Below, one piece after another: positions 10,606 to 28,418 of a DNA stretch of 39,562 bases. The notes under the pieces were generated by a model. That model made no database searches. It was given only the letters and a program-made list of their open reading frames with translations, and was not told where the DNA came from. The number at the start of each line of letters is the position of its first letter. Within the stretch, counting starts at the first letter, position 1. A program made the position numbers and the translations under genes. This DNA comes from Methanobacteriota archaeon. Its GTDB lineage: Archaea; Thermoplasmatota; Poseidoniia; Poseidoniales; Thalassarchaeaceae. The stretch spans positions 7,942 through 47,503 of the forward strand of contig PBMO01000015.1 in the NCBI GenBank assembly GCA_002722595.1, given 5' to 3'.

Positions 10606-11292
10606 GTGCCGAGTCTGTTTCTCAGTTCGAACCCCTCTCTCGAAAGTTCGATCAGTATCTGGAGTGGGCCTTTGCTTGTTTTGTGGCTATATCTTCCTGG
10701 CTATCTTGCGAACACTGCAGCGATGCTTGGGGGGAAATGGATTCCGCAATTGACTGGGATTGAACCTAAAGCGATTGATGGCGGGAGAAGATTGGGTGAT
10801 GGCTTTCGAATACTTGGCGATGGTAAGACATGGAATGGGTTGATTGGAGCTATTATTGGAGCAGGTTTACTGTGCATACTAACACATTCGTTGAGTGAAA
10901 ATCATTTGGTAGAGAATGGTATTTTCCTCGATCCTTTGATTTGGGCAGGTCCTGGAGATTGGTTTTGGATTGGTGGAGAATGGGGTGCGGCCTTTATTGT
11001 GGGTGCATTTTTGGGTCTTGGTTGCATGATTGGAGATTGCACCGGTTCGTTTGTCAAGCGCCGAATGGGTAAGAAAAGAGAGGGGGATGAAAGTTCAGAA
11101 GCCCCTTTGCTGGATACTCTTCCATTTGCCATTTGCACATTTGTAGTGGGTCTGTTCTTGTTCCCAAATACATTGGTTGGAAATATGGAATTGATTCCAT
11201 CGATGTTTGGATTATTGATTATCACACCGATTATCCATCGATTAACCAACATGTTTGGCTACTGGTTGGGTTTGAAGGAAGTCCCTTATTGA
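10606..11292 (+). CDS. carS: CDP-archaeol synthase (CTP:2,3-di-O-geranylgeranyl-sn-glycerol-1-phosphate cytidyltransferase)
   Basis: An integral membrane enzyme that activates unsaturated archaetidic acid with CTP to CDP-archaeol, the branch point of archaeal polar lipid synthesis. The 228-residue chain has about five to six hydrophobic segments and the CarS/DUF46 signatures: YLPGYLANTAAMLGGKWIP near 29-47, LGDGKTWNGLIG near 70-81, GDCTGSFVKRRMG near 143-155 and LLDTLPF near 168-174. Length agrees with bacterial and archaeal CdsA-like CarS proteins, allowing for a longer loop around WAGPGDWFWIGGEWG. No in-frame ATG exists upstream before a stop, so GTG at 10606 is the best start. It is read divergently from the 10525 gene and lies 38 bases upstream of purD, so the two are probably co-transcribed. 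It is strong evidence that the host is an archaeon. Confidence 0.92.
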   Translation: MPSLFLSSNPSLESSISIWSGPLLVLWLYLPGYLANTAAMLGGKWIPQLTGIEPKAIDGGRRLGDGFRILGDGKTWNGLIGAIIGAGLLCILTHSLSENHLVENGIFLDPLIWAGPGDWFWIGGEWGAAFIVGAFLGLGCMIGDCTGSFVKRRMGKKREGDESSEAPLLDTLPFAICTFVVGLFLFPNTLVGNMELIPSMFGLLIITPIIHRLTNMFGYWLGLKEVPY

Positions 11293-11330
11293 TGGCACTC
11301 TTCATGAGCCGAACCATGTGTGAGGCAAAC

Positions 11331-12593
11331 ATGGGCCGCACGGTTCTCATTGTTGGAGGGGGAGGTCGAGAGCACGCCTTGGCAATCGGTCTCGTTGAAA
11401 GTCCCTCAGTAGATTCTGTCCATGTAGCCCCAGGGAATGCTGGCACAGAAGCTATTGCCACCAACCATGATGTTTCGGCCGCCGATGTAGTCGGGCAAGT
11501 TGAATTAGCTAAATCACTTGGAGTAGATCTAGTAGTTGTAGGCCCCGAAGCACCACTGGTAGCCGGTTTGTCTGATTTACTTCGCACTGAAGGAATCCCA
11601 AGTTTTGGTCCACATGCTGCTGGTGCAATGCTTGAAGGAAGCAAGGATTTTGCGAAACAAGTCATGCTTGATCTAGAAATTCCAACTGCTAAAGTGCAAC
11701 ACTTGACTGCAGAAATCGATTTGGATGAGGCAGTGGATAAATGGGGTGCCCCTTGGGTAGTCAAACGTGATGTTCTAGCAGGTGGGAAAGGTGTAGTAGT
11801 AACTGATAACAGGGATGAAGCACTTGATTTCATTACAGAATCTATTGAATCGGATGGCATGGTTCTGCTTGAAGAATTTTTATCCGGTGAAGAAGCAAGT
11901 ATGCTCGTAATGATGGATGAGTCTGGTTTTGTGGCACTTCCATGCAGCCAAGATCACAAGCGAGTCAGTGAAGGGGATGTGGGCCTAAATACAGGCGGGA
12001 TGGGTGCTTATGCCCCCGCCCCTGTTGCAACTGAATTGGTCAGGTCACGTGCGATTTCAGAGATTGTAGAACCGATGCATAAACACCTTTCATCGCAGGA
12101 AATTCCATATCGCGGGTGTCTATATGTTGGCCTTATGATTGATGGTGACGGTGCGCCATCCGTAGTAGAGTATAATGTTCGGTTTGGTGATCCTGAAACC
12201 CAAGTCACAATTCCACTTATTGACAGTGATTTATGTGAACTTCTTCTTGCCGTTGCAGAAGGCCGATTGGCTGATTCTATGCCCACTTTTTCCGATAACC
12301 ACGCCCTCACAGTTGTGCTTGCAGCAGAAGGATATCCTGGCCCTCCTGTCAAAGGGCGAGAAATCTCGGGTGATTTTTCAGATTTAATAGATTCAAAAGG
12401 TCGTGCATTTATTCACCATGCAGGGACAGAAATCCGTGATGAGAAATTGGTTTCCACCGGCGGCAGAGTGCTGGCTTCAACCGGAATATCATCATCTTTG
12501 TCTGATGCCCAGAGTCTTGCTTATGAGATGCTCTCCCGGGTACATCTTGAGGGTTCTCATTTCCGCCGAGATATTGGTCATAGGGCACTTTGA
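11331..12593 (+). CDS. purD: Phosphoribosylamine--glycine ligase (GARS)
   Basis: The second step of de novo purine synthesis: ATP-dependent joining of glycine to 5-phosphoribosylamine, in the cytoplasm. The 420-residue chain is normal length for a monofunctional PurD. The N-terminal loop is VLIVGGGGREHAL (5-17), and GPEAPLVAGL is at 71-80. The ATP-grasp elements are AGGKGVVV (150-157) and LLEEFLSGEEAS (169-180). The signature QDHKR (207-211) with NTGGMGAYAP (220-229) is intact, as is the metal-binding FGDPETQ (285-291). ATG at 11331 is the start that fits family alignment; a longer frame upstream overlaps carS and has no family homology. It is preceded by GAGGC. No purine neighbours are in the window. 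Confidence 0.96.
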   Translation: MGRTVLIVGGGGREHALAIGLVESPSVDSVHVAPGNAGTEAIATNHDVSAADVVGQVELAKSLGVDLVVVGPEAPLVAGLSDLLRTEGIPSFGPHAAGAMLEGSKDFAKQVMLDLEIPTAKVQHLTAEIDLDEAVDKWGAPWVVKRDVLAGGKGVVVTDNRDEALDFITESIESDGMVLLEEFLSGEEASMLVMMDESGFVALPCSQDHKRVSEGDVGLNTGGMGAYAPAPVATELVRSRAISEIVEPMHKHLSSQEIPYRGCLYVGLMIDGDGAPSVVEYNVRFGDPETQVTIPLIDSDLCELLLAVAEGRLADSMPTFSDNHALTVVLAAEGYPGPPVKGREISGDFSDLIDSKGRAFIHHAGTEIRDEKLVSTGGRVLASTGISSSLSDAQSLAYEMLSRVHLEGSHFRRDIGHRAL

Positions 12594-12729: not shown

Positions 12730-15700
12730 ATGGAAAATGAAAATGTAGGCAAGTCGACATCAGTCCCCTTATTCGGACTGCTAGCGATTCCGGTTACGAT
12801 TGCTATCATGCTAGCCATGATGGTGGGCGCTACTTGGAACACAGTCGATTACGAAGCAAGCGAATGGAATACACTGCTGATGATTACCGCCGTTCTTTTG
12901 GCAGGCGGTTTACTTGGCAAGGCACCCCGCATAATCTTCGAACCTATTGGGACTCGACCCTCTCTCGTGTCTCTCGGTTTTGCAGTAGTTATCGGTGCAG
13001 TTGGCATGGTACACTACTATGACGGGGCAGCTCTACTCGGGCTTGCATTCACATTGATGGCCATAGGTGTTCATCTGTTTGATCGCTCACGTCGTCATGA
13101 AGAAGAAATCATGGTCGTTGGTTTTGTTGCAGGATTTATGTATGCAATACAAGTTGCCTCAGCAGGTCATGATTTCCCAGACTACGTAAATTCCCTACCA
13201 GCAAATTACTACGAAATGGTTGATGTTGATAGAGCTGTAACCGGTTATCTGTTTTTCACTTGGTGGATAGTTTCGATTCTTGTTAGTGCAATCATTGCAC
13301 TTGCAGTTCGTGGTCGCCTCCAAGAGGGAGGCCGGGGTTCGTGGTTCTCAGACTTGCCTGAAACAATTGGCAAGGCCCACGCGCCACTGTTCGTAGGGAT
13401 GTCCGTTTGGTTGGCTGCTCATCTATTCAGTCTCTGGCATCTCAAAACCCTTGAAAATCCTGATTCGATTTATTTGGCAGAACATGTCGGTTTCTTTTGG
13501 GCATTTTTCACTGGAATAATTGCTATGTTTGCAGTATTCTGCTGGGCGGAGCACTGGAGAACTTTGAGTATATTTGTTGCTGTAAACTGGATGCTATACA
13601 CATTTGGGAGTTGGCAGAATGCAGGATTATTTGTTTTCGGAGATGCAGAAGGTGCTCTTGGTTTCTTACATGGAAGTCTAGGAGGTTTGTCTTGGTTTGC
13701 GATTTTCTTCTGGCTTAATGCTGGAGTTTTGTATCTAGGATTCACAGGCCGCTTACTCCAAGGGCCCGAACGGCGTACTGCTGGAAATGCACGAATTTGG
13801 TGGAACAAACACTGGTATGGAATTACTGTGGCTAGCGCTCTTCTAACAGCACTAGTTGTTCGAGTGATGTGGAATGTAATACCTGCATTGAATGCTGCAG
13901 GAACTGGAGAATGGGACATGACTGGTGGTTCCGATCCGTGGTATATGAAAAGGGCAATTGACTACATTCTTGCTCAAAATAGTCATTTCATAATCGATAT
14001 GGATCGAGCCTACCCAGTGGGTTCAATCAATCCTCGTCCACCCTTATTCAGTTGGACTTTAGCATTAGGTGGTACTGCTCTAAATCCCTTCATAGATGGA
14101 GATGTGTTTGACGCTGCATGGTGGTCAATTGCTGCCATGCCTGCTGTTTATGGTGCGCTAACAGTTTTGCCCATTGCAGCTACTTGCCGAAAATTCTTCG
14201 GAAACGGAGCAGGTGCAATTGGTGCATGGCTCATGGCTCTAATGCCTGGGCACGTCAGCCACAGCACATTTGCTCTAGCAGACCACGATGCTTTCGTCAT
14301 CCTCTTCCTTTCACTAGGATTTTATTATTGGCTCTGTGCTGCAGAATCTATTGGTAGTGACAAATTACTTCCTGAGTCAAATTGGAGTCCTATGAACTTG
14401 GTTCGAGGGATTCAGGCAGCATTCAAAGAACACCCTAAGTCCATGTCATATGCTCTGTTGGCAGGTGTTTCATTTGCAACAGTTGCATTGGGTTGGAAAG
14501 GGTTTGTATACGGTCTTGCAATTATTTACGCAGCATTCTTTGTCCAGACGGCTCTCAACCTTCTAAGGCGCCGAGATAGTATGCCTCTTACTGCAGCAAT
14601 TATTGTCATGATGTTGACTACTTTCCTCCTACCTCTGCCATTTTATGGGAATATGCAGTTGGATCTCCTTTGGGATGCTAGCGGTTTCCAACCGTTGTTC
14701 TACATCGTTGGCTTTACAATAATCAATGGCTGGGTGGTCACTGCGTTCCGTGACAAACCTTGGTTACTCGTTATCATCATGGGTGTTGGTATTTCTACAG
14801 TACTTCTTGGTGCCTTGTACATTCTACAAGTCCTTGACATGAGCAATGGGTGGGATGTATTGACAACCGGTGGATTTTATTTCACAAAGAACAAGATTTT
14901 CGGAACTATTGCTGAGGCTCAAGCTCCAAGCAGAGGTCAGTTGTTCGCTAACTTCGGCCCACTGGTGTTCCTAATTTCATTGGGCATGGGCCTGTTCACA
15001 CTATTGAGAGGCCTGCGACAAAGAAATCAGTCGAATCTAATTCTTTCAGTCTGGGTTCTACTCGCGTCTTACATGGCATGGTCTGCGGGGAGATTCATGT
15101 TCAACGCAACTCCAATAATGGCGATTATGGGTGCTGCAGGAGTTGTTGGATTGTGGAACTGGTCGGGGATCAAAGACTACATGAAGACATGGAAGAGAAT
15201 GGGCACAAGTGGGCCAAGAGCACGACTTGGTTCTACAATCCGTGCAGGTAGAAAGCACCCAGGTGTACCTGCAATAGGATTAGTCCTTCTACTTCTAGTA
15301 AGCCAACATGCTATTTACGGCCTTGATTCGGGGATACCCCGCGGTGAGGCTGGTGAAAAGCAGGTTGACGATGTAATCTACGGTATCCTCCCAGATGCCC
15401 TTAGGGCTGAAATATTTGGCTGGTCTATCTTGGATAGTTCATCATACCCAGAATTTGGTGTTGATAATGCTGAAGATGAGACTTTCCGATGTAATCAAGA
15501 CTGTTGGTATATGGGAACCTTTGGGCCTGGATTTAATGGTCGGTCTTGGAATGAAGCATACGATTGGCTTGAGAACCAAGATGCCGACGTGACATTCTCA
15601 GAAAGACCTGCTTTCGTATCATGGTGGGATTATGGTTTCCAAGCACTTGCACAAGGGCAACATCCAACCGTTGCAGACAACTTGCAGTCTGGAATTCCTG

Positions 15701-18700
15701 CGGCAGGAAATATGCTTCTTGCAAATGGTGAAGAGGACACTCTTGCTCTCTTCATATACACGCTTGCAGAAGGTGACATGCGCTATGAAATAAATGTCAA
15801 TGATGGTGAGAATGGCCGATTCACACAAGATTTTGAGAATGTGATGCGTAGCCATTTCACTGCCACCACTTCCGATGGCAGTTCCACATGGGATGAATGG
15901 GTTGAGATCAGTACAATGGATGCTAGTGGTGTTGAAGAGCGCTCGTTCAAGGTAATCGGTTCAGCAGATGATGTTGTATTAGTTGAGGGATATCCAATTA
16001 CTGATGAGGGTATTCGTTCGGACACAAAAATTTACAAATTATATGAAGATCGAGAACTAGAGGGCGAGTTCGAAGATTTTGGCACAGCAATAGCAAATTT
16101 CGATAGCAATAGTAATGTTGATTGGATGGAAGATTGTCCACGTGAAGAAGAATACATTTTCGATAAAAATGGATTAACCCCTAATCAAAAGAATTTCGAT
16201 GCTTCATCAGGATTTTCCTGTGAAACTACACACTACATTATCGGAGATTATTGGTATACTAGTGATTTGTACGAAGACTTTGGAGATGTTTCGACCTCTC
16301 TACACCGACAAAATGCTCGATATGCAATATCCCGTAATTTGCTAACAAATGTTTTCTCAATGGATGAAATGGTTGATTTGTATAGCGATTTGACATCCCT
16401 GACTTACGAAGTAGCAACTTACGAAGGCGGCCCTGGTGAGACTGTAGAGCGTAACAATGACATTCGCTATTTTGCAGTTGACAACCGTCTCTATCCGATT
16501 GGTGGGTACCAATATGCGGAAAGTGGGATGCACTATGGTAATCCGACTGGTATTTTCTATGCGCCAACAACTCTTAGTGGGTTGGATCCTGATAATTACC
16601 TGAAAACAGTTTACATCACACAAAGAGGCGACCGTCCAGAGCAAGAGATGACGAGTACAGAATTCGAAGAGGCTTATGTTGCAGACATTATGGCTAGCCA
16701 ATCAGGTAGCGGCGGAGATATCATTGAACTAAACGATGTTCGAGTTGATCATCAATCAGCTTTCTACGAAACCATGGTTGCCAAAACATACGTCGGTTAT
16801 GGCACAACAAGTCTTGGTTTAGATCAACTGAATAGACAGGGACATCCTGCACAACACTTCAGCGGGTATGGTACTCCAGATACACCATTGACCTATGCGC
16901 AACCACTTCCAGGTGCCATGATGAGCCACTTTGTATTGGCCAACTGGTATGATCCTAGCAATACTGATGGCTCGATTGGTTCAGCAAATACCGGTGTTAA
17001 GATTCTCAAGTATTACTCTGGCGCTACTTTGGAGGGTGACATTGTTCTTGGTGAACTGGGCGCTGTGCCGAACGCCAAGATATTAATCGAACGTGATGCA
17101 TTTAGTGGCGAAGATGAAACAGATCTTGATGGTCGAACATATTGGGTTCCAATTGCTACTGCTCAGGCAGACGATGAAGGGCACTACAGTGTCCTTGTTC
17201 CAAGTGGTAGAATCCGAGTTTCCGCTTTCATGGGTGACTCAGACCTCGTAACAGCTCGCGATAATTTGATGACAGCAACTTCGCAGGATTCCTCGAATTG
17301 GTTATACGACTTGATATTGGAAGATGGGGATTATGAGGAGCGCGAAATGAACCCAATAACCGGGATATTGACTAATCTTTCAGGCTCTACATGGCTAGGG
17401 GAATCATCGATTAACGTATCGGGAGATGCTGGACATTCAAATGGGGAAATAACACTCAATTTGGATATAGAAATAGGCGCCTCAGGAGCGACTGGGACTA
17501 TACAGTGGGATGGAGAATCTCAATTTGGAGGAGAGCCACTTTCCAATATGGATTTGAGAATTAGCAATATTTGGGACGAAACTCGCCAAGATGCGTATCA
17601 CATTACCACTTCTGCCGGTGAAGTTGAAGGAGATCGACAGTTCGGTCCTAGTGCCACAGGTGAAGTTACATTCACAGGTGCGGGTACAATGATTTCAGAA
17701 TCAGGTGTAGTTACAGCAACCGATTTCACCGGTAATTACACGCGTAGTATATTGCACAACCATTCATTCACTGGCGAGGGGCACATAGATGGCCGTGGTA
17801 CCTTAGTTGGTACAATTTCAGGCGCATCTCCAGAAGCGTGTGTGAATGGGACGATGCCAGATGGAGCTGTTTATTGTCTTGAGGATGCAAATCAAACAGA
17901 TACGATTTTGATTGATGGAAGCGTTGAGAACATAGATGGAAAATTCACATCTAATGGGACCTCATTCTTCACAACAACCCTTTACCGTGAAACAATAATT
18001 GGAGCAGGTACATTCGTAGTCGATACATCAGATACTAGTTTGGAGTCATATGGTACTCTAAACGGTACAGGGACATTTGATGGGATTGGTAGATTTAGTG
18101 GAGACATGGTAAAGCCGGGTTCATTCCACCTGATTGATGCGATCCCAGGTACTTATCACGTCACTGTATTATTTGATAATGGACAAGAAGTGATACTACC
18201 AATGCCTCTCGAGGTTCCATTGTCTCGCGATAGTCCTGAAGCCAAGGATATTGAGTTATTATTACCAGGTACTTGGATTCAAGGTGCAGCGAGTTCACTG
18301 ACCCTTGATGGTGAAGAGAGCCAGGCAATTACAGGGCAGTTAGAACTGGTAAATTTCACAGATGCAGAAGCAACTGTCACGCAACCATGTGGAGATATTG
18401 CATGGGCACCTTGCTGGTTCGAAACTGACAGTGAGGGTAATTTCGGACTTGGGCCGGTGCTTGAAGGCGAATACCTTGTGATTATGGATGCAGATGACGA
18501 CGGGTTCGATGAATACCGTTCTGAGAGAATCGTAGTCAGTGCTGATACCGCAGGAAATGTAACTCCAACAAACATTGAGCGCATACCGCCGATGTATGAT
18601 ATTGAATTCCTATTGCTTGATCATGAGGATCAGCCGGTGGAAGGGCAAAACCTTTCATTCTCCAATCAATTTAGTCCAATTTCGATTGATGCACGAGACA

Positions 18701-21700
18701 ATGGTGGTGGTTCTTACAACGTAGAACTTCCGCGTGATACTTGGGTAGTCGAGGGAATTCTAGATGACAATTACATCCTGTACAAAGAAATAGATCTGCA
18801 AGATGATATTGATAGCCTTGTACTCCAATATGTCGAATCAGCATGGGTCAACGGTTCAGTAATGATTGAAGCTGATAAGCCCGACGATGAAGAAATACCG
18901 TACAGGAATCAGATGGTCGAGGTCCGTTGGGGTGGAATCATTGAGTCCACTTTAACTGATGACAATGGTTCATTCGGATTTCAGTTGCCAGTTGGTGCTG
19001 AAGTTAACCTGACAGTGAATGTAGTAGTAGGACACCTACTCGTTGGAGAGCACTTTACAGTACCCAGTGGTGGAATGACATTCAGTGGTGAAAACACACT
19101 ATATCCGCGCAATGCATTCGGTGCAGCAGGCAACCTCTTCCTCTATGATGTGGGCTTGCCATATTCGCAATCAGTCCCCGGATTCTTTGATCATCCATTC
19201 ATGATTGAAGCGTACGATAATTCCACAGGAGTCACTTGGCATTGGGATGTAGAGCCAGATACAGGAAGATTCACAACGTGGGTTTTGGGTTCAGAGGTTG
19301 AAAACACTACGCGAGAATGGACATTATCTGTAAGCAATGATGCACTAAATGTGGCCCCATTTGATTACAATCCAGTAGGCGACAATAATACATTGATTCT
19401 GATTGCAGACCCAGCTCCAGTCGACGTCACTCTGAGTACATTCATAGACCATAGTGAGGATGGAAATATGTCCAATGGAACAGCCATGCCGGTTGATTTC
19501 AGTCTTGTTCCACTAGGATGGGGCAATGAAACAGTGGTTGTTAATATTACAGCAGATGATGCTCGTTGGAGTAATGGAACTATCGATCTTGAATTGCAAG
19601 TAGGTAATTGGCAATTCACCACAGAGGCAAAGGATCCACGTTCTGAGAATGCAACTGATTACAATACTCTTCTATCCGTTTCGAACGGAGTAATTGAGAT
19701 TGGCATCGGTTCTGATGCGCAAACAGTCGAACTAGGATTCCAACCAGAGTGGTACACTTCGATATCATTGGTTAACGAGAGTGGTGGTCCTATGTCAAAT
19801 TGGACAGTATACTTCGAAGATGCAGAAGATGAGAGTAATCAGTTTAGTCTTGATACAGATGAGAATGGTACCATTGTAGAGTATCTTCCAGAAGGAGATT
19901 GGATTGCTTATGTTAACGATTTCATATTGGATGACGGTGATGATTCTAATGACGATCCGTTGCAAACCTTTAGGGCAGCCTTTACCGTTGATTCATTAAC
20001 ATCTGGCGTCCCAATTCAGTGGCAAGCAGTCGAATCTGCTCAATTCAACATAACCCTAGTTGAGGCTGGTAGTGGAGAATTGCTGAGTGGGTTTACGGTA
20101 ACAGCAGTAAGCAATGATGGCCTTGGTGAATTCCCAATAGGTCCAAGTGATGAGGACGGTGTGATTGATGCTTCTTTGATGCCTGGTGCATGGACTCTCG
20201 AACTCAACCGAACAGAAGGCCAAATGCGCTGGATTCTTGAAGATCATTCCATGAACCTTGTCTCAGGTTCGAGTAACTCCGAAATGAACTTGTCCCTAGA
20301 CAAGTGGGTTGAGATTGCAGGTAATTTGTTCCGTGATATTGATGCGAATGAGATGTGGAGTTATTCAGAAGGAATTGAGGGTGCTAACGTAACAGTTAGC
20401 AGTGAAAATTTCGGTCCTGTGTATCTTGAAACCGGCGCAATTGGAACATGGCGTGTATTCGTACCAGTCAATTCAACCTACGATATATTGGCAACCAAGG
20501 ATGGCTACAGCAATGGTTCATTGTCTATGGATGTAGACTATGTGGCAAATACATCTGACATCGAGATGTTTGCAGGAGTTGTTACCATCAGTGGATTGGT
20601 CGATCACATTCTGCCATCACAGTGGTCTCAAATAGCGGATGATGTAGAATTAGTTCTGATACCCGAATCAGGGTTATCGTACGATCGCGTTATTCCGATT
20701 AAGCAAACACCTAATGGTACTTGGACTGGTGAATGGAACGCAGAAGTTGACCCAGGTAATTGGTTGATTTATGCGGAATATGATGGTTCAGAGGGTCGTT
20801 TTGCAGCACTTGCATCGATTGATGCTCAAGTTGGTTTAGGTGGAGAGGCAAACACTACTCTCTCTACGGCGAGTGTTCTGCATATCAGTACAAAGTGGTT
20901 TGATTACGACCAAACTGAGAGAACTCTAGGTGATTCTGATTTGATTGAATCTGGTGCAAACTTGGTATTTTCAAGTGCACAAGTATTCGATTGGAATCAA
21001 ACAGTTGATTCAAATGGACAAATATCACTGCTACTACCTGCTGGGGATTACAGTTTCAGCGGTTCATTCACAACAATAGAGCGTGGCGTTAACATGACGT
21101 ACAACGGCGGTAAGAGTGCTGAGGTAGTTGGAGGAGGTGTAGAATCACCTGAGCAGATGGTTTTGTTCAGTGTTCGGGAAGACCACTCAATTTCATTCAC
21201 GGTGGGAGATTCCCATGTAGGTGTGAACCAATCTACAATGGATTCTGATGACTTCACAATCCTAGATGATGGAGATGAATATGAATATGTGGTGGGCGAA
21301 ATAAATCTTGAAATGGTTTACAATGGTAACCGTCCAGAAGATGATTTCCTATTGACTATCGAGATGAACGGTGGAGATGCCGAGTTCTGGACAGTTGAAG
21401 TTTGGAATGGTACGGACGAGGACGGTGTGGATGTATGGGAAATTTCCCGTCCATTTACGATGGGTCTTGATTCCAATACTACACAGGACCTACGTCTACG
21501 AATTACACCAGCAAATAAGTCTGTAGCAGAGTCATATGATTCTGGACATTCCATGCTGATTCGAATGACACACACTGATCAAACATTCAATGAATATGAG
21601 TTGAAACTATTCGTTCCACAATCTTTCGGATACGAGCTCCTGAGTGAAGCAGACGACATGATTGGCATAACACCTGGGTATGATGAAACCTATTCTATTG

Positions 21701-22407
21701 AGTTCCAGAACAAAGGAAATGGCGACGATACTTACACTGTGGAAATATCTGATTTACCGGTTGAGTATGCACTTTGGAGTGTAACTGGCCCATCTACTGT
21801 AACAGTTGGACCTGGAATCGTTCAAGCATATTCACTGAACATACATGCACCTGATCTTCCATCCATAGGTGACAATGATGAATTCGACATTTATGTTACA
21901 TTTACAAGTGAAAATAATGTGAGTTACGAGGCAATCAAGTTGAAGATTAAAGCAACTACACCTCAAATTGAATTCGGTGATGCAGGAACACTCGGACAAT
22001 CACAATCTGGATTCGCTGTGATGAATACAGTGACACAACTCTATGTCGATGTTGAAAATACGGGCGATGTTGATGCAAGGGCAGTAACTGTCGAAGTTTT
22101 AGACGACTCAGAATCACCACAAGTAGTTGCAACCGCAACCTTGGATGTCCCAATGAATGAAACAGTACAATTCGTCTTTGACATCCCTGCAGTAGATCAG
22201 CAGGGCTCCATTGATTACACATTCAGAGTCAATGGCACGGATGATTTGACTGATTTACCCGATGAAAAGATGCTCAAGGTAAATTATCAGCCGCAAGTGA
22301 GCAAGGAAGCAAATGACTACCTAGGCCTAGTCGTCTTACTATTCGTCATTGCAATCCTCTTCCTCTTCTGGAAGTTTGGTGGCCGTATGAGTTCACAAGC
22401 ATTCTGA
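12730..22407 (+). CDS. aglB: Giant AglB/STT3 oligosaccharyltransferase with multi-domain ectodomain
   Basis: A predicted 3225-residue archaeal oligosaccharyltransferase, which transfers a lipid-linked glycan to Asn of N-x-S/T outside the membrane. Residues 1-360 are an extra domain of about nine membrane segments, family not recognised. The STT3 core starts near 365. It shows the first acidic motif GGSDPWYMKRAID (Asp402), the second LADHDAF (Asp518/Asp520), the external-loop motif TIAE (726-729) and the acceptor-binding WWDYG (965-969). A globular part follows to about 1425. From about 1430 to 3190 lies a chain of beta modules: a carboxypeptidase-regulatory-like module (GATLEGDIVLGEL), many similar repeats with ExGNFGLG/DDNGSFGFQL turns, then CARDB/NEW3-like modules (YSIEFQNKGNGDDTYTVEI). 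A final helix near 3200-3220 (LGLVVLLFVIAILFLFW) anchors the C-terminus. Known archaeal AglB proteins are usually about 600-1000 residues, so this one is three to five times longer. The frame is continuous, with no sign of misassembly. Confidence 0.93.
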   Translation: MENENVGKSTSVPLFGLLAIPVTIAIMLAMMVGATWNTVDYEASEWNTLLMITAVLLAGGLLGKAPRIIFEPIGTRPSLVSLGFAVVIGAVGMVHYYDGAALLGLAFTLMAIGVHLFDRSRRHEEEIMVVGFVAGFMYAIQVASAGHDFPDYVNSLPANYYEMVDVDRAVTGYLFFTWWIVSILVSAIIALAVRGRLQEGGRGSWFSDLPETIGKAHAPLFVGMSVWLAAHLFSLWHLKTLENPDSIYLAEHVGFFWAFFTGIIAMFAVFCWAEHWRTLSIFVAVNWMLYTFGSWQNAGLFVFGDAEGALGFLHGSLGGLSWFAIFFWLNAGVLYLGFTGRLLQGPERRTAGNARIWWNKHWYGITVASALLTALVVRVMWNVIPALNAAGTGEWDMTGGSDPWYMKRAIDYILAQNSHFIIDMDRAYPVGSINPRPPLFSWTLALGGTALNPFIDGDVFDAAWWSIAAMPAVYGALTVLPIAATCRKFFGNGAGAIGAWLMALMPGHVSHSTFALADHDAFVILFLSLGFYYWLCAAESIGSDKLLPESNWSPMNLVRGIQAAFKEHPKSMSYALLAGVSFATVALGWKGFVYGLAIIYAAFFVQTALNLLRRRDSMPLTAAIIVMMLTTFLLPLPFYGNMQLDLLWDASGFQPLFYIVGFTIINGWVVTAFRDKPWLLVIIMGVGISTVLLGALYILQVLDMSNGWDVLTTGGFYFTKNKIFGTIAEAQAPSRGQLFANFGPLVFLISLGMGLFTLLRGLRQRNQSNLILSVWVLLASYMAWSAGRFMFNATPIMAIMGAAGVVGLWNWSGIKDYMKTWKRMGTSGPRARLGSTIRAGRKHPGVPAIGLVLLLLVSQHAIYGLDSGIPRGEAGEKQVDDVIYGILPDALRAEIFGWSILDSSSYPEFGVDNAEDETFRCNQDCWYMGTFGPGFNGRSWNEAYDWLENQDADVTFSERPAFVSWWDYGFQALAQGQHPTVADNLQSGIPAAGNMLLANGEEDTLALFIYTLAEGDMRYEINVNDGENGRFTQDFENVMRSHFTATTSDGSSTWDEWVEISTMDASGVEERSFKVIGSADDVVLVEGYPITDEGIRSDTKIYKLYEDRELEGEFEDFGTAIANFDSNSNVDWMEDCPREEEYIFDKNGLTPNQKNFDASSGFSCETTHYIIGDYWYTSDLYEDFGDVSTSLHRQNARYAISRNLLTNVFSMDEMVDLYSDLTSLTYEVATYEGGPGETVERNNDIRYFAVDNRLYPIGGYQYAESGMHYGNPTGIFYAPTTLSGLDPDNYLKTVYITQRGDRPEQEMTSTEFEEAYVADIMASQSGSGGDIIELNDVRVDHQSAFYETMVAKTYVGYGTTSLGLDQLNRQGHPAQHFSGYGTPDTPLTYAQPLPGAMMSHFVLANWYDPSNTDGSIGSANTGVKILKYYSGATLEGDIVLGELGAVPNAKILIERDAFSGEDETDLDGRTYWVPIATAQADDEGHYSVLVPSGRIRVSAFMGDSDLVTARDNLMTATSQDSSNWLYDLILEDGDYEEREMNPITGILTNLSGSTWLGESSINVSGDAGHSNGEITLNLDIEIGASGATGTIQWDGESQFGGEPLSNMDLRISNIWDETRQDAYHITTSAGEVEGDRQFGPSATGEVTFTGAGTMISESGVVTATDFTGNYTRSILHNHSFTGEGHIDGRGTLVGTISGASPEACVNGTMPDGAVYCLEDANQTDTILIDGSVENIDGKFTSNGTSFFTTTLYRETIIGAGTFVVDTSDTSLESYGTLNGTGTFDGIGRFSGDMVKPGSFHLIDAIPGTYHVTVLFDNGQEVILPMPLEVPLSRDSPEAKDIELLLPGTWIQGAASSLTLDGEESQAITGQLELVNFTDAEATVTQPCGDIAWAPCWFETDSEGNFGLGPVLEGEYLVIMDADDDGFDEYRSERIVVSADTAGNVTPTNIERIPPMYDIEFLLLDHEDQPVEGQNLSFSNQFSPISIDARDNGGGSYNVELPRDTWVVEGILDDNYILYKEIDLQDDIDSLVLQYVESAWVNGSVMIEADKPDDEEIPYRNQMVEVRWGGIIESTLTDDNGSFGFQLPVGAEVNLTVNVVVGHLLVGEHFTVPSGGMTFSGENTLYPRNAFGAAGNLFLYDVGLPYSQSVPGFFDHPFMIEAYDNSTGVTWHWDVEPDTGRFTTWVLGSEVENTTREWTLSVSNDALNVAPFDYNPVGDNNTLILIADPAPVDVTLSTFIDHSEDGNMSNGTAMPVDFSLVPLGWGNETVVVNITADDARWSNGTIDLELQVGNWQFTTEAKDPRSENATDYNTLLSVSNGVIEIGIGSDAQTVELGFQPEWYTSISLVNESGGPMSNWTVYFEDAEDESNQFSLDTDENGTIVEYLPEGDWIAYVNDFILDDGDDSNDDPLQTFRAAFTVDSLTSGVPIQWQAVESAQFNITLVEAGSGELLSGFTVTAVSNDGLGEFPIGPSDEDGVIDASLMPGAWTLELNRTEGQMRWILEDHSMNLVSGSSNSEMNLSLDKWVEIAGNLFRDIDANEMWSYSEGIEGANVTVSSENFGPVYLETGAIGTWRVFVPVNSTYDILATKDGYSNGSLSMDVDYVANTSDIEMFAGVVTISGLVDHILPSQWSQIADDVELVLIPESGLSYDRVIPIKQTPNGTWTGEWNAEVDPGNWLIYAEYDGSEGRFAALASIDAQVGLGGEANTTLSTASVLHISTKWFDYDQTERTLGDSDLIESGANLVFSSAQVFDWNQTVDSNGQISLLLPAGDYSFSGSFTTIERGVNMTYNGGKSAEVVGGGVESPEQMVLFSVREDHSISFTVGDSHVGVNQSTMDSDDFTILDDGDEYEYVVGEINLEMVYNGNRPEDDFLLTIEMNGGDAEFWTVEVWNGTDEDGVDVWEISRPFTMGLDSNTTQDLRLRITPANKSVAESYDSGHSMLIRMTHTDQTFNEYELKLFVPQSFGYELLSEADDMIGITPGYDETYSIEFQNKGNGDDTYTVEISDLPVEYALWSVTGPSTVTVGPGIVQAYSLNIHAPDLPSIGDNDEFDIYVTFTSENNVSYEAIKLKIKATTPQIEFGDAGTLGQSQSGFAVMNTVTQLYVDVENTGDVDARAVTVEVLDDSESPQVVATATLDVPMNETVQFVFDIPAVDQQGSIDYTFRVNGTDDLTDLPDEKMLKVNYQPQVSKEANDYLGLVVLLFVIAILFLFWKFGGRMSSQAF

Positions 22408-22506: not shown

Positions 22507-23754
22507 ATGGTGCGTGGCCCCTATCAACACCTCGAATATCTTCCTGAACCTGAAGATCCGCGGATGCTTACAGCCATTGACCCAGATGCACCAGGTTACT
22601 CTCCAGAAGCGTATGGAATTAGTCCACAGGAGGCTGATGCATGGAAACAAGTTGCGAACGAAAATTTCCATCGTGCCCGGCCAAGAGCATGGGGCCCATT
22701 CATAGTAGTGAGCGTGGTTGGACTACTGCTGTTGAGTTATCCTGCACTGACGAGTGTTTTTTCCAAAGCTCTAATCCCAGATTCGTCTTGGGCATATGAG
22801 GACACAAATATTTACACTTTACAAGAAAATTTTGGACTAACGGGTGAAGGAATTTCTGTCTGTATCGTTGACACCGGTATCGATATGACCCATCCAGATA
22901 TTGCAGACGCGAATTTGGTTGCATACCGTGATTTTGTACAAGGTGATCATCAGATAATTCAAGATCGGGGAGATGATTTCCATGGTACTATGATGGCAGG
23001 CATTTTAGTGGCGAATGGTGAGCAATTCAAAGGAGCCGCACCCAATGTGGATTTGGTAATTGCAGCGGCCCTCGATTCTGATGGTGCGACGCGCTCAGAA
23101 TCGGATGTCGCAGACGCTGTCGAATGGTGCTGGGCTGTGATGGATGTAGACATCATTTCACTTTCACTTGGAGGTGATCCTGATCCGGAAAACCCCCTCG
23201 GTTCACTCACGGCCAATGCAGTTGGGGACGCATTGGATAACGGTGTATTCGTAGTTGCTGCTGCTGGTAATTCAGGAGGTGCAGGGACTGATGTGACAGA
23301 TGTATCAGTTCCAGCAAATGTCGATGGAGTGATTGCAGTTGGTGCAGTTGATCGGAATGGTGACCTGTGGGAAAGAACTGCAACTGGTTCTACGACAGAG
23401 GGTGCTGCAGGAGATGCACGTCTAGAACCAAATCAAAAGCCAGAAGTCACAGCACCTGGTGTTGACATAATTTCAACATCTGATTCTGCCTTCACAGTAC
23501 CCTATTCAGCGAGTACTGGGACCAGTGATGCAACTGTTTTTGTTACTGGTGCTTTAGCTCTTATTCTTGAAAGGCACGGTTCGGAATTACCTGAATCAGA
23601 TTCACGCCGCATGGGAATTTTATTGGTAAAACAGGCATTAGCAGATTCATGCACCCCCAATCCATTACAGGGGGAATCCCACCACCCTCGATGGGGTTAT
23701 GGAATGCTTGATGCATTGGCTTGGGAAAGAGCAATTGCAGACTCGATAGTATGA
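22507..23754 (+). CDS. Signal-anchored subtilisin-like serine protease
   Basis: 415 residues. Unlike a normal secreted subtilase it starts with a polar, proline- and acid-rich segment of about 62 residues (cytoplasmic by prediction). A single membrane helix at about 63-81 (GPFIVVSVVGLLLLSYPAL) puts the peptidase domain outside with no cleavable signal. The S8 triad is intact: Asp122 in CIVDTGIDMTHPD, His159 in DDFHGTMMAGIL and Ser340 in STGTSDATVFVTGAL; Asn255 in AAAGNSGG supplies the oxyanion hole. There is no obvious propeptide. The Ser motif reads GTSDAT rather than the common GTSMA/SxP, a small deviation also seen in other archaeal members. Position directly after aglB suggests a role in trimming or quality control of exported glycoproteins, but this is inference. 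Confidence 0.9.
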   Translation: MVRGPYQHLEYLPEPEDPRMLTAIDPDAPGYSPEAYGISPQEADAWKQVANENFHRARPRAWGPFIVVSVVGLLLLSYPALTSVFSKALIPDSSWAYEDTNIYTLQENFGLTGEGISVCIVDTGIDMTHPDIADANLVAYRDFVQGDHQIIQDRGDDFHGTMMAGILVANGEQFKGAAPNVDLVIAAALDSDGATRSESDVADAVEWCWAVMDVDIISLSLGGDPDPENPLGSLTANAVGDALDNGVFVVAAAGNSGGAGTDVTDVSVPANVDGVIAVGAVDRNGDLWERTATGSTTEGAAGDARLEPNQKPEVTAPGVDIISTSDSAFTVPYSASTGTSDATVFVTGALALILERHGSELPESDSRRMGILLVKQALADSCTPNPLQGESHHPRWGYGMLDALAWERAIADSIV

Positions 23755-23757
23755 TTT

Positions 23758-23888
23758 TCGATATTATTGAACTATTTCGATACTAAAAGATGATTTTTTA
23801 AACACATAATGATATTTTTTTAATATTTTTAATTTAAAAATAACATTATTTGGCGAACATACTTGATACAAATGTCTTTTTTTGATAC
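23758..23888 (+). repeat. Four direct repeats TYGATAY in two 19-bp-spaced pairs
   Basis: Core copies are TCGATAT (23758-23764), TCGATAC (23777-23783), TTGATAC (23863-23869) and TTGATAC (23882-23888). The spacings are 19, 86 and 19 bases. Flanks are also similar: TTTCGATAYTA in the first pair and TTGATACNAA in the second. Paired same-face direct repeats upstream of a promoter are typical of regulator-binding sites. Confidence 0.45.
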
Positions 23889-23935
23889 CAATTAATTTGA
23901 GTACACCGGTTCTATTATAGTGGAAATAGCGCTGG

Positions 23936-23954
23936 CCCCAGATATAATCAGGGG
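23936..23954 (+). promoter_or_regulatory. Leader hairpin sequestering the GGGG ribosome-binding site
   Basis: The sequence CCCC-A-GAT-ATA-ATC-A-GGGG is mirror-complementary. Four C-G pairs, an A-A mismatch and three further pairs close an ATA loop. The 3' arm GGGG (23951-23954) is the only good Shine-Dalgarno candidate for the ATG at 23962, 7 bases away. Confidence 0.4.
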
Positions 23955-23961
23955 TAGAACG

Positions 23962-26900
23962 ATGAGCGAAAAAAATCGAGAAAAGAGCATATTCTTGTCA
24001 TTTCTGATGCTTACTAGCATCATGATTGGCTTTGTAGGTGCGTTACCTACAGTTGCAGCAACCAACGAAACTTCTAGTGGTACAATTACTGCTAATCCAG
24101 AGATCTGGAGTGGCTCCCATACTGTGACTGGAGATATCGTTGTGGCAACTGGTGGACGCTTAGTCATCCAACCAGGGACCACTATTACAATGCCAAATGG
24201 GACAATGATTGATGTGCGTGGCGGTATCTGTGCAGGTGATGTGGCCTGTGGTGCAAATGGTATGGCAAGCAATTCATCTAGAATCACATTCAATTGGCAA
24301 GATCCAGCGGACCCTGAAGCAATTGGTAGTTGTTATGGGATATTCAACAACAATCACTACAACCGGGATCCTTCCTGCAATGAGGGAATCCTTCTTCGAA
24401 GCACAGTCGATATTGGGGCCACTAAATTGAATCATGTGACAATTAACAATGCGTATGGGATGCCTCTTTGGGTTCCAGAAATATCTGAAGTCAGATATGG
24501 TTCATTGGTGACAGAAGGCGCGAGCCCAACTCTCACTGGAATGAAATTCACGGGTATAAACACAACCAGTTTGCTGATTTTGAATCTGGCGCGCCCCAAT
24601 ATTGTGGGCGGAGAATTTACTGTTGGTGATGACGATTCATCGTTAGTTGGTTCAGCAATTCAGGCATATGGTGCAGGGAGCTCGTTACAGCCGCTTACAA
24701 TTACAAATGCGATTTTCACGGGTACAGAAAACGGTTGTGGACAGAATAACGACGGGCGCTATGGAATCTGGGCCGAAGAGTCATTTGTTGATATTCAGTA
24801 CTCTGTAATTGATGGTGGAGATTATGGTTTCCGTTTAGATAATTCAGCAGGCCAGGTTAGTTCTTCTACAATCACGACTACGTGCAATGGAATCGATATA
24901 AACAACAAAAAAAGGGCAGGTGACCTGTCTTACAAATTGACAGTAACTGGCAATAGTATCGAAACTGACGAGAGGTCTCCACTAACAGCCTACAACTTCG
25001 CTTGGGTAGATTTCAACAACAATGTCATATCGGGTGCTTCAGAGGGCTCTGGAATCCAAATTTCCCAAAGCCAAGTCAATATCAATGGTGGCGCAATAGG
25101 GCCAATTGGTGGATGGAACGGGATCTGGTCGATTGGCGAAAGTGATGTCCGTATCGAGAATGTCACAATTCAGGATACTGCACAGGAGCCCCTTGTTGCT
25201 GGCCAATACCCATGGGGTAGTGAAGGCTGGAAGACATTAACTGAAAATCGAATGTATGTTGCTAATTCCGTGATTACTGGGCAACCTTCGGGATGCACAA
25301 GTGTGAAGTTGTGGAATGGAGATTTCGGTTGTCCAGGTATACATGCATACGGGGCATCAGTTTCTCTGATGAATAATCAGTTTGACATTTCAGGAGGCGG
25401 TGATGGTATTCGTGCAGTAGGTTCTATCCTAGATGTCAGAAACAATGATTTCAATGTATCAGGGACTGGTGCCACAATTAAGCACCATGATACTAAGGTG
25501 GCAGGTTCTCAGCAGTATGGCAGTTTAGGATTCTTTTCGATGAATAATTGGATGGGGGTTGGTCAAACCTATAACATCACTAAGAGCAGTGTTACTGTTC
25601 AGTCTGAGAATATCCCCATACCTAGTCAATCAGTCAATACATCTGACCCTGCGACGTTGAGATGGGAAGGCAGACAATCATGCCCTGGTTGTTCCGACAC
25701 GACTGGGGGCGATTGGGCCACCCAAGTTTTGGTTCCTGAAACCAAGATATGGCCACCTCAGGAATTCCCATTGGCACTTGAAATGACAAATAACTCAACG
25801 GTTTTCACATATTCTAATCTAACTGGTTTGGATACATCCAACATCTACATCGACGTATCTCCTTCGAAGTGGGCTGTTCAGATTAGGAAGGCAGAAATTG
25901 TTAAATTCAGAACTATAGTTGAAGGCGTGCGTGTAGGTGGGACAAGTGTCTTGGTTGAGGACAGTCATGGCGATGACATTTACAGTCTGACAACCGATTC
26001 CCAAGGCTGGACTCCTGAAATCTCATTGGCAAGTGATTTCCATTTGGATTTTAGAGGCAATGGGGATAATCCTGATCGATATGCAGATGATGCTGGTGAA
26101 AATTCATGCAGTGATGGAATAGATAATGATGGGGATTTAATTTATGATTTAGATGACCCGGATTGCAATGCAGGCGCCAATAGTCGTGAAATGTCTCTCT
26201 ACTATGTAACAGCGTATAAGTTTGGAAAGGGATACAAGAAGTACAGTTTAGTGATGACGAGCCAAACGGGTGTTCTGTCAGAAATTATTCCTTTGGAGAA
26301 CATGGATCCCACGGTTTCGGTAAGTCAAAATGATGGTCATTCATTCAAGCGTTCAGTCAACTTTACCGGTTCAGCACATGATGGCATGTGGGCTGGAATT
26401 TATGGTTCTGATGATTTAGCACAGTGGGATCAGCAAGGTATTGTTGAACAGGTTCAGGTCAAAGACCCCTTCACTAGTGATTGGCTTGATGCACGCCTTG
26501 CAACAGATTCCAGCGGTGCAAATGGCGAAGTCACTTACAATAATCATCCATTTAGAAACTGGTATTTTGAATATGATATGAGTGATCAACCAGAAGGAGA
26601 TTATACGTTTGAATTTAGAGCGTTTGATGGCGTTGCTGAATCACAAATAGTCACCCGTACAATAAAACTCAACACAGAACCTCCAACAATTTGGGTTGAT
26701 GGACCAGCGGATAATTCTGTTATTGATGAAGGCGTTATCCAATTCACTGGACGTGCATCAGATTCATACAGTGGTATTTTTGGTAGTGATATTCAGCGAA
26801 TTTGGTTTGAGGTTGAAGGACCAAATAATTACTACAATTTGTTTGACAAACCCGGTGGGACTGCTTGGTCAGCTGATTGGAACGTAGGCCATTTACCATC

Positions 26901-28332
26901 AGGCAGTTACGTCGTGAAAATATGGGCTAGTGACTCAGCCTTTTGTCTGAACACACCAGATGAATGTAATGAAGTAACACTCAACCTAGAGTTTGACAAT
27001 GAAAATGCACTACCTGTTGTCCAATTATTGACACCATTTGAAGGCCAAGTCATTACTTCAAGCGATGACACTCTGCTGAGTGGTGTTGCAAGGGATACAG
27101 ATGGGACCGTCACCAAAGTCGAAATCACAATCAGGGATCCGCAAGCAGGAATTGATCCTGATGGAACGGGTTTCCTGCGACTTCCTGATGGCCCCCACTC
27201 TCTCGTGACAGACATTCAACCGAGTGGTGGTTGGGCCACAGCTTGGGACACAACTCAATTAGTTCACAATTACAATTACATTGTCGAAGCGCGGTCATTT
27301 GATGGTTTCCAGTACAGTGACGCATCATCTGTTCAGATCAAGATTGATAATCCACCTAATCAGGACAACAATCGCCCACAGTTTGATTCCACTAACTGGC
27401 CAGATAGCATCACAATTTTCTGTGAGGAAACAGGTACATCTGCAGACCGTTGTGGAAACGGAAAGTCGATTGATTTAACACAGTATTTCTCTGATTCGGA
27501 TTCCGGAGATAGTCTACAATATTACGTCCTTGACCAAGATATTGCTGCTGATAATGATCATGTTTTGATCAAGGTAGATGACAGTGGGGTTGCTACATTC
27601 AACCCAATCGACATGTCGTATACTTACTCAGATATGGCTGATTGGTCTCTTCAGAATGTCATATTCCAAGTGAGGGACACTGCCGGCAGTACTGCATCTT
27701 CAGCACCGATTGATTTCGATGTTGTTGGAGTTTCCTTCTCCTCACAATGTGCAGGTTTAATGGTCGATGGGCAATTCGAATCAGGATGTCCTGACGAATT
27801 AACGAAATCAGATACACTGGTTTATTCTGGCTCTGGAAGGCCATCTGTCACAATTATCGGTGAGACTGAGGCTGGTTTGCGTTTAGCAAGCACAGTTGTT
27901 CAAGACGACGGCACATGGATGATGGAAATTCCTGCCAGCCGCTTAGAGCAAGGTGATAACACGATAATTTTCGAATATGGTACAATTGAGCAACCGAAAA
28001 ACGAGGATTCGGTAGTGAATCTTGGAGGAACTTCTGATAGTGGTTCAGCACTTACCACAATATTGGTAATTATTGCAATAATTGTCATTATTGCAGTTCT
28101 AGGAGGGGTATTCGTCTTCTTCTTTGTGGAGTTTGAGGAAGAGCCAGAAGAAATGATGGAACCTGTTGCTGAAGCCGATCCATATGCGTGGGCAAAGCAG
28201 AACCAACAGGAACAGGCAGCCCCTCAACCAGTAGTACAACAGCAACCCGTGGCAGCTGAACCGGTGGTGTCTGGATATCCTGGTTGGAAATGGGATTCAG
28301 AACAGAACAAATGGGTTCCAGATAACCAGTGA
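23962..28332 (+). CDS. Beta-helix surface protein with Ig-like modules and membrane anchor
   Basis: 1456 residues, extracellular. A signal peptide (hydrophobic core FLSFLMLTSIMIGFVGALP, cut near TVAATN) leads into a right-handed beta-helix of roughly residues 45-560. Its short repeats include GGRLVIQPGTTITMPNG, IWAEESFVDIQYSVIDGGDYGF, GIHAYGASVSLMNNQFDI and ILDVRNNDFNVSG. Near 710-735 is an Asp-rich calcium-site motif, CSDGIDNDGDLIYDLDDPDC. Next come several Ig/cadherin-like modules (PPTIWVDGPADNSVIDEG, LPVVQLLTPFEGQVI), then a membrane helix near 1366-1392. The cytoplasmic tail is Glu-rich, then Gln/Pro-rich, and ends in GYPGWKWDSEQNKWVPD, which resembles DUF2510-type Trp motifs. Beta-helices often bind or cleave polysaccharide, but no catalytic site is evident. 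ATG 23962 gives the signal peptide; an upstream GTG at 23920 does not improve it. Confidence 0.83.
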   Translation: MSEKNREKSIFLSFLMLTSIMIGFVGALPTVAATNETSSGTITANPEIWSGSHTVTGDIVVATGGRLVIQPGTTITMPNGTMIDVRGGICAGDVACGANGMASNSSRITFNWQDPADPEAIGSCYGIFNNNHYNRDPSCNEGILLRSTVDIGATKLNHVTINNAYGMPLWVPEISEVRYGSLVTEGASPTLTGMKFTGINTTSLLILNLARPNIVGGEFTVGDDDSSLVGSAIQAYGAGSSLQPLTITNAIFTGTENGCGQNNDGRYGIWAEESFVDIQYSVIDGGDYGFRLDNSAGQVSSSTITTTCNGIDINNKKRAGDLSYKLTVTGNSIETDERSPLTAYNFAWVDFNNNVISGASEGSGIQISQSQVNINGGAIGPIGGWNGIWSIGESDVRIENVTIQDTAQEPLVAGQYPWGSEGWKTLTENRMYVANSVITGQPSGCTSVKLWNGDFGCPGIHAYGASVSLMNNQFDISGGGDGIRAVGSILDVRNNDFNVSGTGATIKHHDTKVAGSQQYGSLGFFSMNNWMGVGQTYNITKSSVTVQSENIPIPSQSVNTSDPATLRWEGRQSCPGCSDTTGGDWATQVLVPETKIWPPQEFPLALEMTNNSTVFTYSNLTGLDTSNIYIDVSPSKWAVQIRKAEIVKFRTIVEGVRVGGTSVLVEDSHGDDIYSLTTDSQGWTPEISLASDFHLDFRGNGDNPDRYADDAGENSCSDGIDNDGDLIYDLDDPDCNAGANSREMSLYYVTAYKFGKGYKKYSLVMTSQTGVLSEIIPLENMDPTVSVSQNDGHSFKRSVNFTGSAHDGMWAGIYGSDDLAQWDQQGIVEQVQVKDPFTSDWLDARLATDSSGANGEVTYNNHPFRNWYFEYDMSDQPEGDYTFEFRAFDGVAESQIVTRTIKLNTEPPTIWVDGPADNSVIDEGVIQFTGRASDSYSGIFGSDIQRIWFEVEGPNNYYNLFDKPGGTAWSADWNVGHLPSGSYVVKIWASDSAFCLNTPDECNEVTLNLEFDNENALPVVQLLTPFEGQVITSSDDTLLSGVARDTDGTVTKVEITIRDPQAGIDPDGTGFLRLPDGPHSLVTDIQPSGGWATAWDTTQLVHNYNYIVEARSFDGFQYSDASSVQIKIDNPPNQDNNRPQFDSTNWPDSITIFCEETGTSADRCGNGKSIDLTQYFSDSDSGDSLQYYVLDQDIAADNDHVLIKVDDSGVATFNPIDMSYTYSDMADWSLQNVIFQVRDTAGSTASSAPIDFDVVGVSFSSQCAGLMVDGQFESGCPDELTKSDTLVYSGSGRPSVTIIGETEAGLRLASTVVQDDGTWMMEIPASRLEQGDNTIIFEYGTIEQPKNEDSVVNLGGTSDSGSALTTILVIIAIIVIIAVLGGVFVFFFVEFEEEPEEMMEPVAEADPYAWAKQNQQEQAAPQPVVQQQPVAAEPVVSGYPGWKWDSEQNKWVPDNQ

Positions 28333-28418
28333 GGGTAATTTCCTCGCATGGGTCAAGATGGGGTTGCTGGCATCACTATCAAAAGGGAGTGCTGCCAAAT
28401 GTATGTCTGGTGGAAAGT

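Follow-up and report, generated by a model that had tools for sequence, protein, structure and literature searches.

Six compared archaeal AglB proteins have 754-1054 amino acids (aa) and 13-15 transmembrane helices (PMC5131992). The AglB/STT3 oligosaccharyltransferase encoded in the window (the whole 39,562-nucleotide stretch of Poseidoniales DNA that was analysed) has 3225 aa, far beyond this range. Its gene occupies positions 12730-22407 of the forward strand, and the ORF check showed a single ATG-start open frame of 3225 codons without internal stops. A preliminary description of this DNA had noted the unusual size and had recognized an AglB with a long ectodomain and a C-terminal anchor, which was correct. 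It overlooked a block of ten helices at the N-terminus and the homologous stalks present across the phylum.

The enzyme part of the protein has the expected STT3 elements. The Pfam domain PF02516 was detected at aa 401-797 with 57 bits, above its curated cut-off of 24.5. According to Pfam and the motifs, the STT3 transmembrane core covers aa 353-870 (13786-15339, + strand). It contains GGSDPWYMKR at aa 399 (GGSDPW, the first DXD-type motif, starts at nt 13924), LADHDAF at aa 516 (LADHD, the second, nt 14275) and TIAE at aa 726 (nt 14905). The catalytic globular domain follows at aa 901-1540 (15430-17349, +), where WWDYG starts at aa 965 (nt 15622) and which is matched by AglB structures in the PDB; the best PDB sequence matches of the protein were the A. 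fulgidus AglB chains. All four motifs are within the first third of the frame, as described previously. The globular domain is closed by a P1-like first transthyretin-like domain (nt 16945-17352, +), identified by the repeat profile and by a PDB profile match. GGSDPW, DHD and WWDYG are kept in 51/51 Poseidoniales AglB proteins, and T726 and E729 of TIAE are invariant in 27 aligned sequences. DGGK, DK and MI were not found in an exact-pattern search of this protein. The model for archaeosortase A-associated STT3 (TIGR04154) gave 161.4 bits, below its curated cut-off of 450. Because of the conserved motifs, the giant AglB should catalyze the same reaction chemistry as archaeal AglB.

The giant AglB is the sole STT3 detected in its own genome (1.64 Mb, 76% complete), which belongs to the Thalassarchaeaceae of Candidatus Poseidoniales (Marine Group II), and the PF02516 search found exactly one STT3 copy in nearly all genomes of the class. 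In a Marine Group II metatranscriptome study, 'oligosaccharyltransferase' transcripts were higher when genus O1 (Thalassarchaeaceae) was active (PMC9723583). Since STT3 is present as a single copy, these transcripts would come from an orthologue of the giant aglB.

In front of the STT3 core, aa 1-352 (12730-13785, +) form a ten-helix transmembrane block. The AF2 model built with 50 orthologues gave a mean pLDDT of 82 for aa 1-352, with ten long helices ahead of the first STT3 helix, i.e. before aa 353. The block was found in 50/51 sampled Poseidoniales genomes and in 0/144 genomes outside the order in the phylum sample, and it is Poseidoniales-specific in this sample. Foldseek against the PDB returned no match at E<=0.001, and neither the PDB sequence search nor Pfam gave a match to it. 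Its assignment to a known transporter or glycosyltransferase was rejected, given that Pfam, PDB sequences and Foldseek all gave no match. The block probably packs on the STT3 membrane core as an accessory domain of the order. The ten helices would leave the orientation of STT3 unaltered.

Behind the globular domain, the chain continues as a long modular ectodomain. This ectodomain was present as previously described, and its size is about 1650 residues (about aa 1541-3190) rather than the 1800 or so proposed before, because the P1-like domain extends to about aa 1541. Its first part is a long-stranded beta domain at aa 1541-1815 (17350-18174, +), which is conserved in Poseidoniales with an invariant Cys pair (1704/1716) and is faintly detectable in the sister family f3 by profile alignment. 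It is followed at aa 1816-2800 (18175-21129, +) by about 9-11 sequon-rich transthyretin-like repeats of the CarboxypepD_reg / SdrD_B / prealbumin-like beta-sandwich type. PF13620 (CarboxypepD_reg) was detected in the tail with 41.9 bits (cut-off 32.3), and transthyretin-like/CarboxypepD_reg Pfam matches were obtained for 14/14 Poseidoniales members and 20/20 other relatives. The repeat profile found 8 copies within aa 1816-2800 of the window protein, 9 copies in the whole protein and up to 10 in relatives. The P1-like domain is similar to the stalk repeats by profile search, and the stalk may have grown through tandem duplication of this domain.

AF2 modelled aa 1500-2690 with a mean pLDDT of 85 and nearly all beta structure. 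The pTM was 0.43, as expected of a domain string, and at this value the stalk may or may not bend back as an arch. Foldseek with the stalk matched Gram-positive pilins, SdrD, TIE and alpha-2-macroglobulin, among which pilins and SdrD-like surface proteins dominated. A Ca-binding-like DxDxDG loop at aa 1920-1925 (18487-18504, +) has its three Asp invariant in 50 sequences. Judged from this loop, the repeats are probably stiffened by calcium.

The ectodomain ends with two Ig-like domains (FixG_C/NEW3-like and CARDB-like) at aa 2850-3180 (21277-22269, +), which in the window are weak and below the Pfam cut-off. CARDB/NPCBM_assoc matches were found in the Ig-like region of relatives, and the profile of this region matches giant AglBs of other families. 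Hydropathy then shows the C-terminal membrane anchor (22306-22380, +), one hydrophobic helix starting about 33 residues before the end, as had been anticipated; it is present in 50/51 complete Poseidoniales proteins. According to hydropathy and the termini of relatives, the last part is a short, presumably cytoplasmic tail (22381-22404, +) with Phe as the final residue. A terminal Phe was observed in 50/51 Poseidoniales AglBs and in 12/285 ORFs of the sampled own genome; it is a possible cytoplasmic docking motif. No homology was found between the stalk and the other proteins of the window. A short distance downstream of aglB, f3 has a large ORF (L060:13856-18502) that matches the C-terminal Ig-like domains of the stalk (E 1.4e-18), and domain exchange between the oligosaccharyltransferase and this surface protein is possible.

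The giant gene is conserved within the order. It was present in 113/117 related genomes, and in contigs long enough to be counted the frame was mostly 3120-3335 aa in both families. In 50 named Candidatus Poseidoniales loci the frame was complete, with 2971-3321 aa and a median of 3183; these include the apparent single-cell genomes AG-404-A19 (L135, 3178 aa) and AG-313-L18 (L176, 3168 aa). The preliminary description had named an equal length in all relatives as an observation that would speak against novelty here; such a length was found order-wide, and the protein is not peculiar to this genome. In close pairs with unsaturated dS, dN/dS was about 0.03-0.13 for the stalk and 0.02-0.06 for the catalytic part. 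These ratios indicate that purifying selection acts along the whole protein, stalk included. Two records deserve separate mention. In the complete relative G071 (L053, a single 2.06 Mb contig) a frameshift splits aglB into overlapping ORFs of 1603 and 1624 aa, which jointly span the whole protein and are either a real split or a sequencing error. L163, titled 'Deltaproteobacteria bacterium isolate AH-558-G13', holds a Poseidoniales aglB and is a mislabelled or mixed genome.

AglB length was surveyed outside the order by PF02516 searches of the class and of the phylum, presumably Thermoplasmatota; selected full-length genes were fetched. Besides the forms of about 3200 aa in Poseidoniales, we found forms of about 2320-2360 aa in f3, a family that looks MGIII-like from its position. 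At least 12 further families of the phylum have 2000-2750 aa and others 1100-1430 aa, and a few have about 900-1000 aa. In the fetched full-length genes, the giant AglBs terminate in one hydrophobic helix and a short tail, and the forms of 1120-1430 aa are without this helix. By hhalign, the Poseidoniales profile was collinear with those of f3, f23, f29/36, f11, f7, f8/17, f25 and f13/19 (probability 100), from the STT3 core to, or nearly to, the C-terminus. Many off-diagonal matches indicated internal repeats. Families f26 and f16 were linked to this set by profile alignment via f23 and f29. The repeat profile gave 8-12 copies in most giants, with f26, a divergent family, at 4; mid-size forms had 3-6 copies and a form of 981 aa had none. 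Recent acquisition of the stalk in the own genome was rejected, since the stalk is collinear across the phylum. The profile alignments support a general finding, namely that the stalk is homologous through many families with forms of 2050-2750 aa and that much of the phylum carries a predicted stalked oligosaccharyltransferase. In a quick tree of the core, whose backbone support is low and whose branches are long, the giants were scattered over most lineages with the main mid-size clade among them. An old giant form that was later shortened would suit this tree; repeated gain is the alternative.

Potential N-glycosylation sites were counted as N-X-S/T and compared with the reversed pattern S/T-X-N. 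In the stalk of the window protein, 44 forward and 15 reversed patterns were counted. In 50 Poseidoniales sequences the stalk total was 2157 forward versus 907 reversed, with 441/246, 1356/474 and 360/187 in its three parts; these counts pool related, non-independent sequences, and sequons are potential sites, not occupancy. In the same 50 sequences the catalytic globular domain was depleted (87 forward versus 240 reversed), and the STT3 membrane part (133/108) and the N-terminal block (74/65) gave similar forward and reversed counts. Several stalk sequons are kept in 40-48 of the 50 sequences. As controls, about a quarter of the own genome gave 244/241 for ORFs without transmembrane segments and 458/366 for secreted-like ORFs. 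Sequons were equally dense in two further giant surface proteins of this genome (143/92 and 68/45), so that a high density is a mark of some large surface proteins and not of AglB alone. The neighbouring 1470-aa Ig-type surface protein was not enriched (12/20), and the signal is thus neither unique to AglB nor general to beta-rich surface proteins. L215:2410-17656 (5082 aa) and L202:10242-19593 (3117 aa) of the own genome are surface-like proteins with about the sequon richness of the AglB stalk and are candidate main glycoproteins. In other families the tail sequon ratio ranged from 1.2 (f3) to 4.0. Enrichment in the f3 stalk was weak (199/163) and depletion of the globular domain was absent outside the order, which means that sequon density is not universal to the stalk. 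The best reading is that the stalk of this membrane-anchored enzyme would be a densely N-glycosylated rod.

Taken with the domain order, this led us to propose, with a little less than even confidence, that AglB N-glycosylates its own stalk and that the sugar-coated rod keeps enzyme molecules in place and at a distance from one another in the envelope. An ordinary STT3 core lies between the ten-helix block and the ectodomain of about 1650 residues. The transthyretin-like string leads through the Ig-like domains to the C-terminal helix, so that both ends of the chain are held in the membrane. The domain order is read from the sequence, and the proposed shape is a rod or an arch. The stalk would be an acceptor of its own enzyme, in cis or between neighbours; it is taken as such because sequon enrichment begins where the catalytic part ends. 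The resulting rod would hold and space the enzyme on the cell surface near the sites where surface proteins emerge, and the enzyme would stay fixed there as a component of the envelope. The preliminary description offered three functions for the tail, of which a surface protein carrying its own glycosyltransferase fits best with the sequon-rich stalk, although the function itself is deduced. A wider version appears to us rather unlikely: AglB would be a major self-glycosylated envelope component in Thermoplasmatota, above all in Poseidoniales, combining enzyme, acceptor and anchored scaffold, and the new ten-helix domain would act in donor handling or translocon docking.

As the main alternative, the stalk might be a scaffold for substrate handling or docking, a built-in analogue of NOMO that tethers the oligosaccharyltransferase to the translocon or holds emerging proteins near the active site. 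NOMO is an elongated single-pass protein of 12 Ig-like domains with a possible tethering role (PMC11169918). Stalk profiles matched NOMO2 in the PDB over several NOMO domains (3.4e-5 and 5.1e-8, the latter with the P1-like profile). Pfam NOMO1-like_9th was found in 7/14 Poseidoniales members, and NOMO_5th in 9/20 and the EMC7 beta-sandwich in 2/20 other relatives. However, SdrD is an equally good match, bacterial transthyretin-like proteins also match, and pilins and SdrD dominate the fold search, which points to a common fold; for this reason, direct NOMO membership of the stalk is not claimed. Moreover, the OSTA-containing translocon and the NOMO-containing multipass translocon are described as distinct (PMC11169918), and a scaffold leaves the sequon enrichment unexplained. 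We consider this scaffold role improbable, though worth keeping in mind.

The gene neighbourhood bears on another explanation, in which the frame is translated whole and then cut between core and stalk, possibly by a neighbouring subtilase, to give a normal AglB and a separate anchored surface glycoprotein. In Poseidoniales the order purD, aglB, S8 subtilase, Ig-domain protein, TPR protein was kept in 54/54 loci upstream and 51/51 downstream. In the window, purD (GAR synthetase; 11133-12593, +, true start probably downstream of 11133) lies directly upstream. A membrane-anchored S8 subtilase-like protease (22507-23754, +; PF00082) with an N-terminal transmembrane segment at aa 61-86 lies directly downstream. 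The block continues with a 1470-aa surface-like protein with bacterial Ig-like domains (23920-28332, +) and an 870-aa TPR/AAA protein (28329-30941, +) overlapping the preceding gene by 4 bases. Further downstream, a large surface-like protein with TSP3-type repeats (35840-39562) runs off the window end. The constant subtilase neighbour, the stalk's own anchor and the shift in sequon density at about aa 1540 speak in favour of such cleavage. The fusion, however, is kept in f3 and other giant-AglB families, where the subtilase was not found near aglB; in f3 the whole 22507-30941 block was not found beside it. Cleavage of this kind is therefore quite doubtful.

It is similarly hard to credit that the stalk serves chiefly as a structural element of a coat, an S-layer replacement or partner, with fusion to the oligosaccharyltransferase as its delivery route. 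The fold matches to pilins, SdrD and adhesins, the dense sequons and the many beta repeats would suit a coat, and within Thermoplasmatales cell-wall-deficient members outnumber S-layer members (PMC5155288). On the other side, the own genome has other giant surface proteins, and a coat would require the protein to be abundant. Finally, an assembly chimera of genes mis-joined near window position 17000, once raised as a concern, has practically no chance of being right and was rejected, because, apart from the G071 frameshift, whose two pieces combined still cover the entire protein, the continuous frame recurs in dozens of independent MAGs, including 50 named loci, and in apparent single-cell genomes, with purifying selection over the full gene length; by these comparisons assembly fusion is excluded for the giant AglB.

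Planktonic archaea include few groups as abundant as Marine Group II, yet to our knowledge its cell surface is hardly known. The single oligosaccharyltransferase of Marine Group II exceeds characterised AglBs threefold in size, and the repeat-stalk architecture occurs in many families, several with complete genomes. The annotation 'AglB' conceals a large ectodomain, joined in Poseidoniales by a ten-helix membrane domain without classification that nearly all genomes of the order contain. We did not find the giant AglB described in the open-access literature, which the search covered; a prior description in subscription papers is possible. The combination of stalk, anchor and ten-helix block, conserved over the order and in part over much of the phylum, is apparently undescribed, while the enzyme family and the repeat fold are already known.

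Compared with known systems, the giant AglB shares with archaeal AglB (A. fulgidus AglB-L, PDB 3WAJ/5GMY/7E9S) the STT3 core, the DXD-type motifs, TIXE, WWDYG and probably the P1-like beta domain. It differs in length (3225 versus 754-1054 aa; PMC5131992), in having ten additional N-terminal helices, a stalk of about 1650 aa and a C-terminal anchor, and in that the exact DGGK, DK and MI motifs were not found. The mid-size AglBs of the phylum (1120-1430 aa) have a homologous core and the first 3-6 repeats, but no C-terminal anchor, no N-terminal block and fewer repeats than the giant form. NOMO, a BOS complex subunit of the ER translocon, is alike in its string of transthyretin/Ig-like beta-sandwiches, its one C-terminal helix and a significant profile match; unlike the stalk, NOMO stands alone as a eukaryotic protein whose domains follow an order of their own and include no enzyme, and the similarity is one of a common fold. 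SdrD B repeats, Gram-positive pilins and CarboxypepD_reg domains of surface proteins have the repeat fold in common with the stalk, as indicated by PF13620, Foldseek and profiles. SdrD and pilins are cell-wall-anchored adhesins and pili, whereas in the giant AglB the predicted rod forms one chain with a polytopic enzyme and is held by the membrane at both ends.
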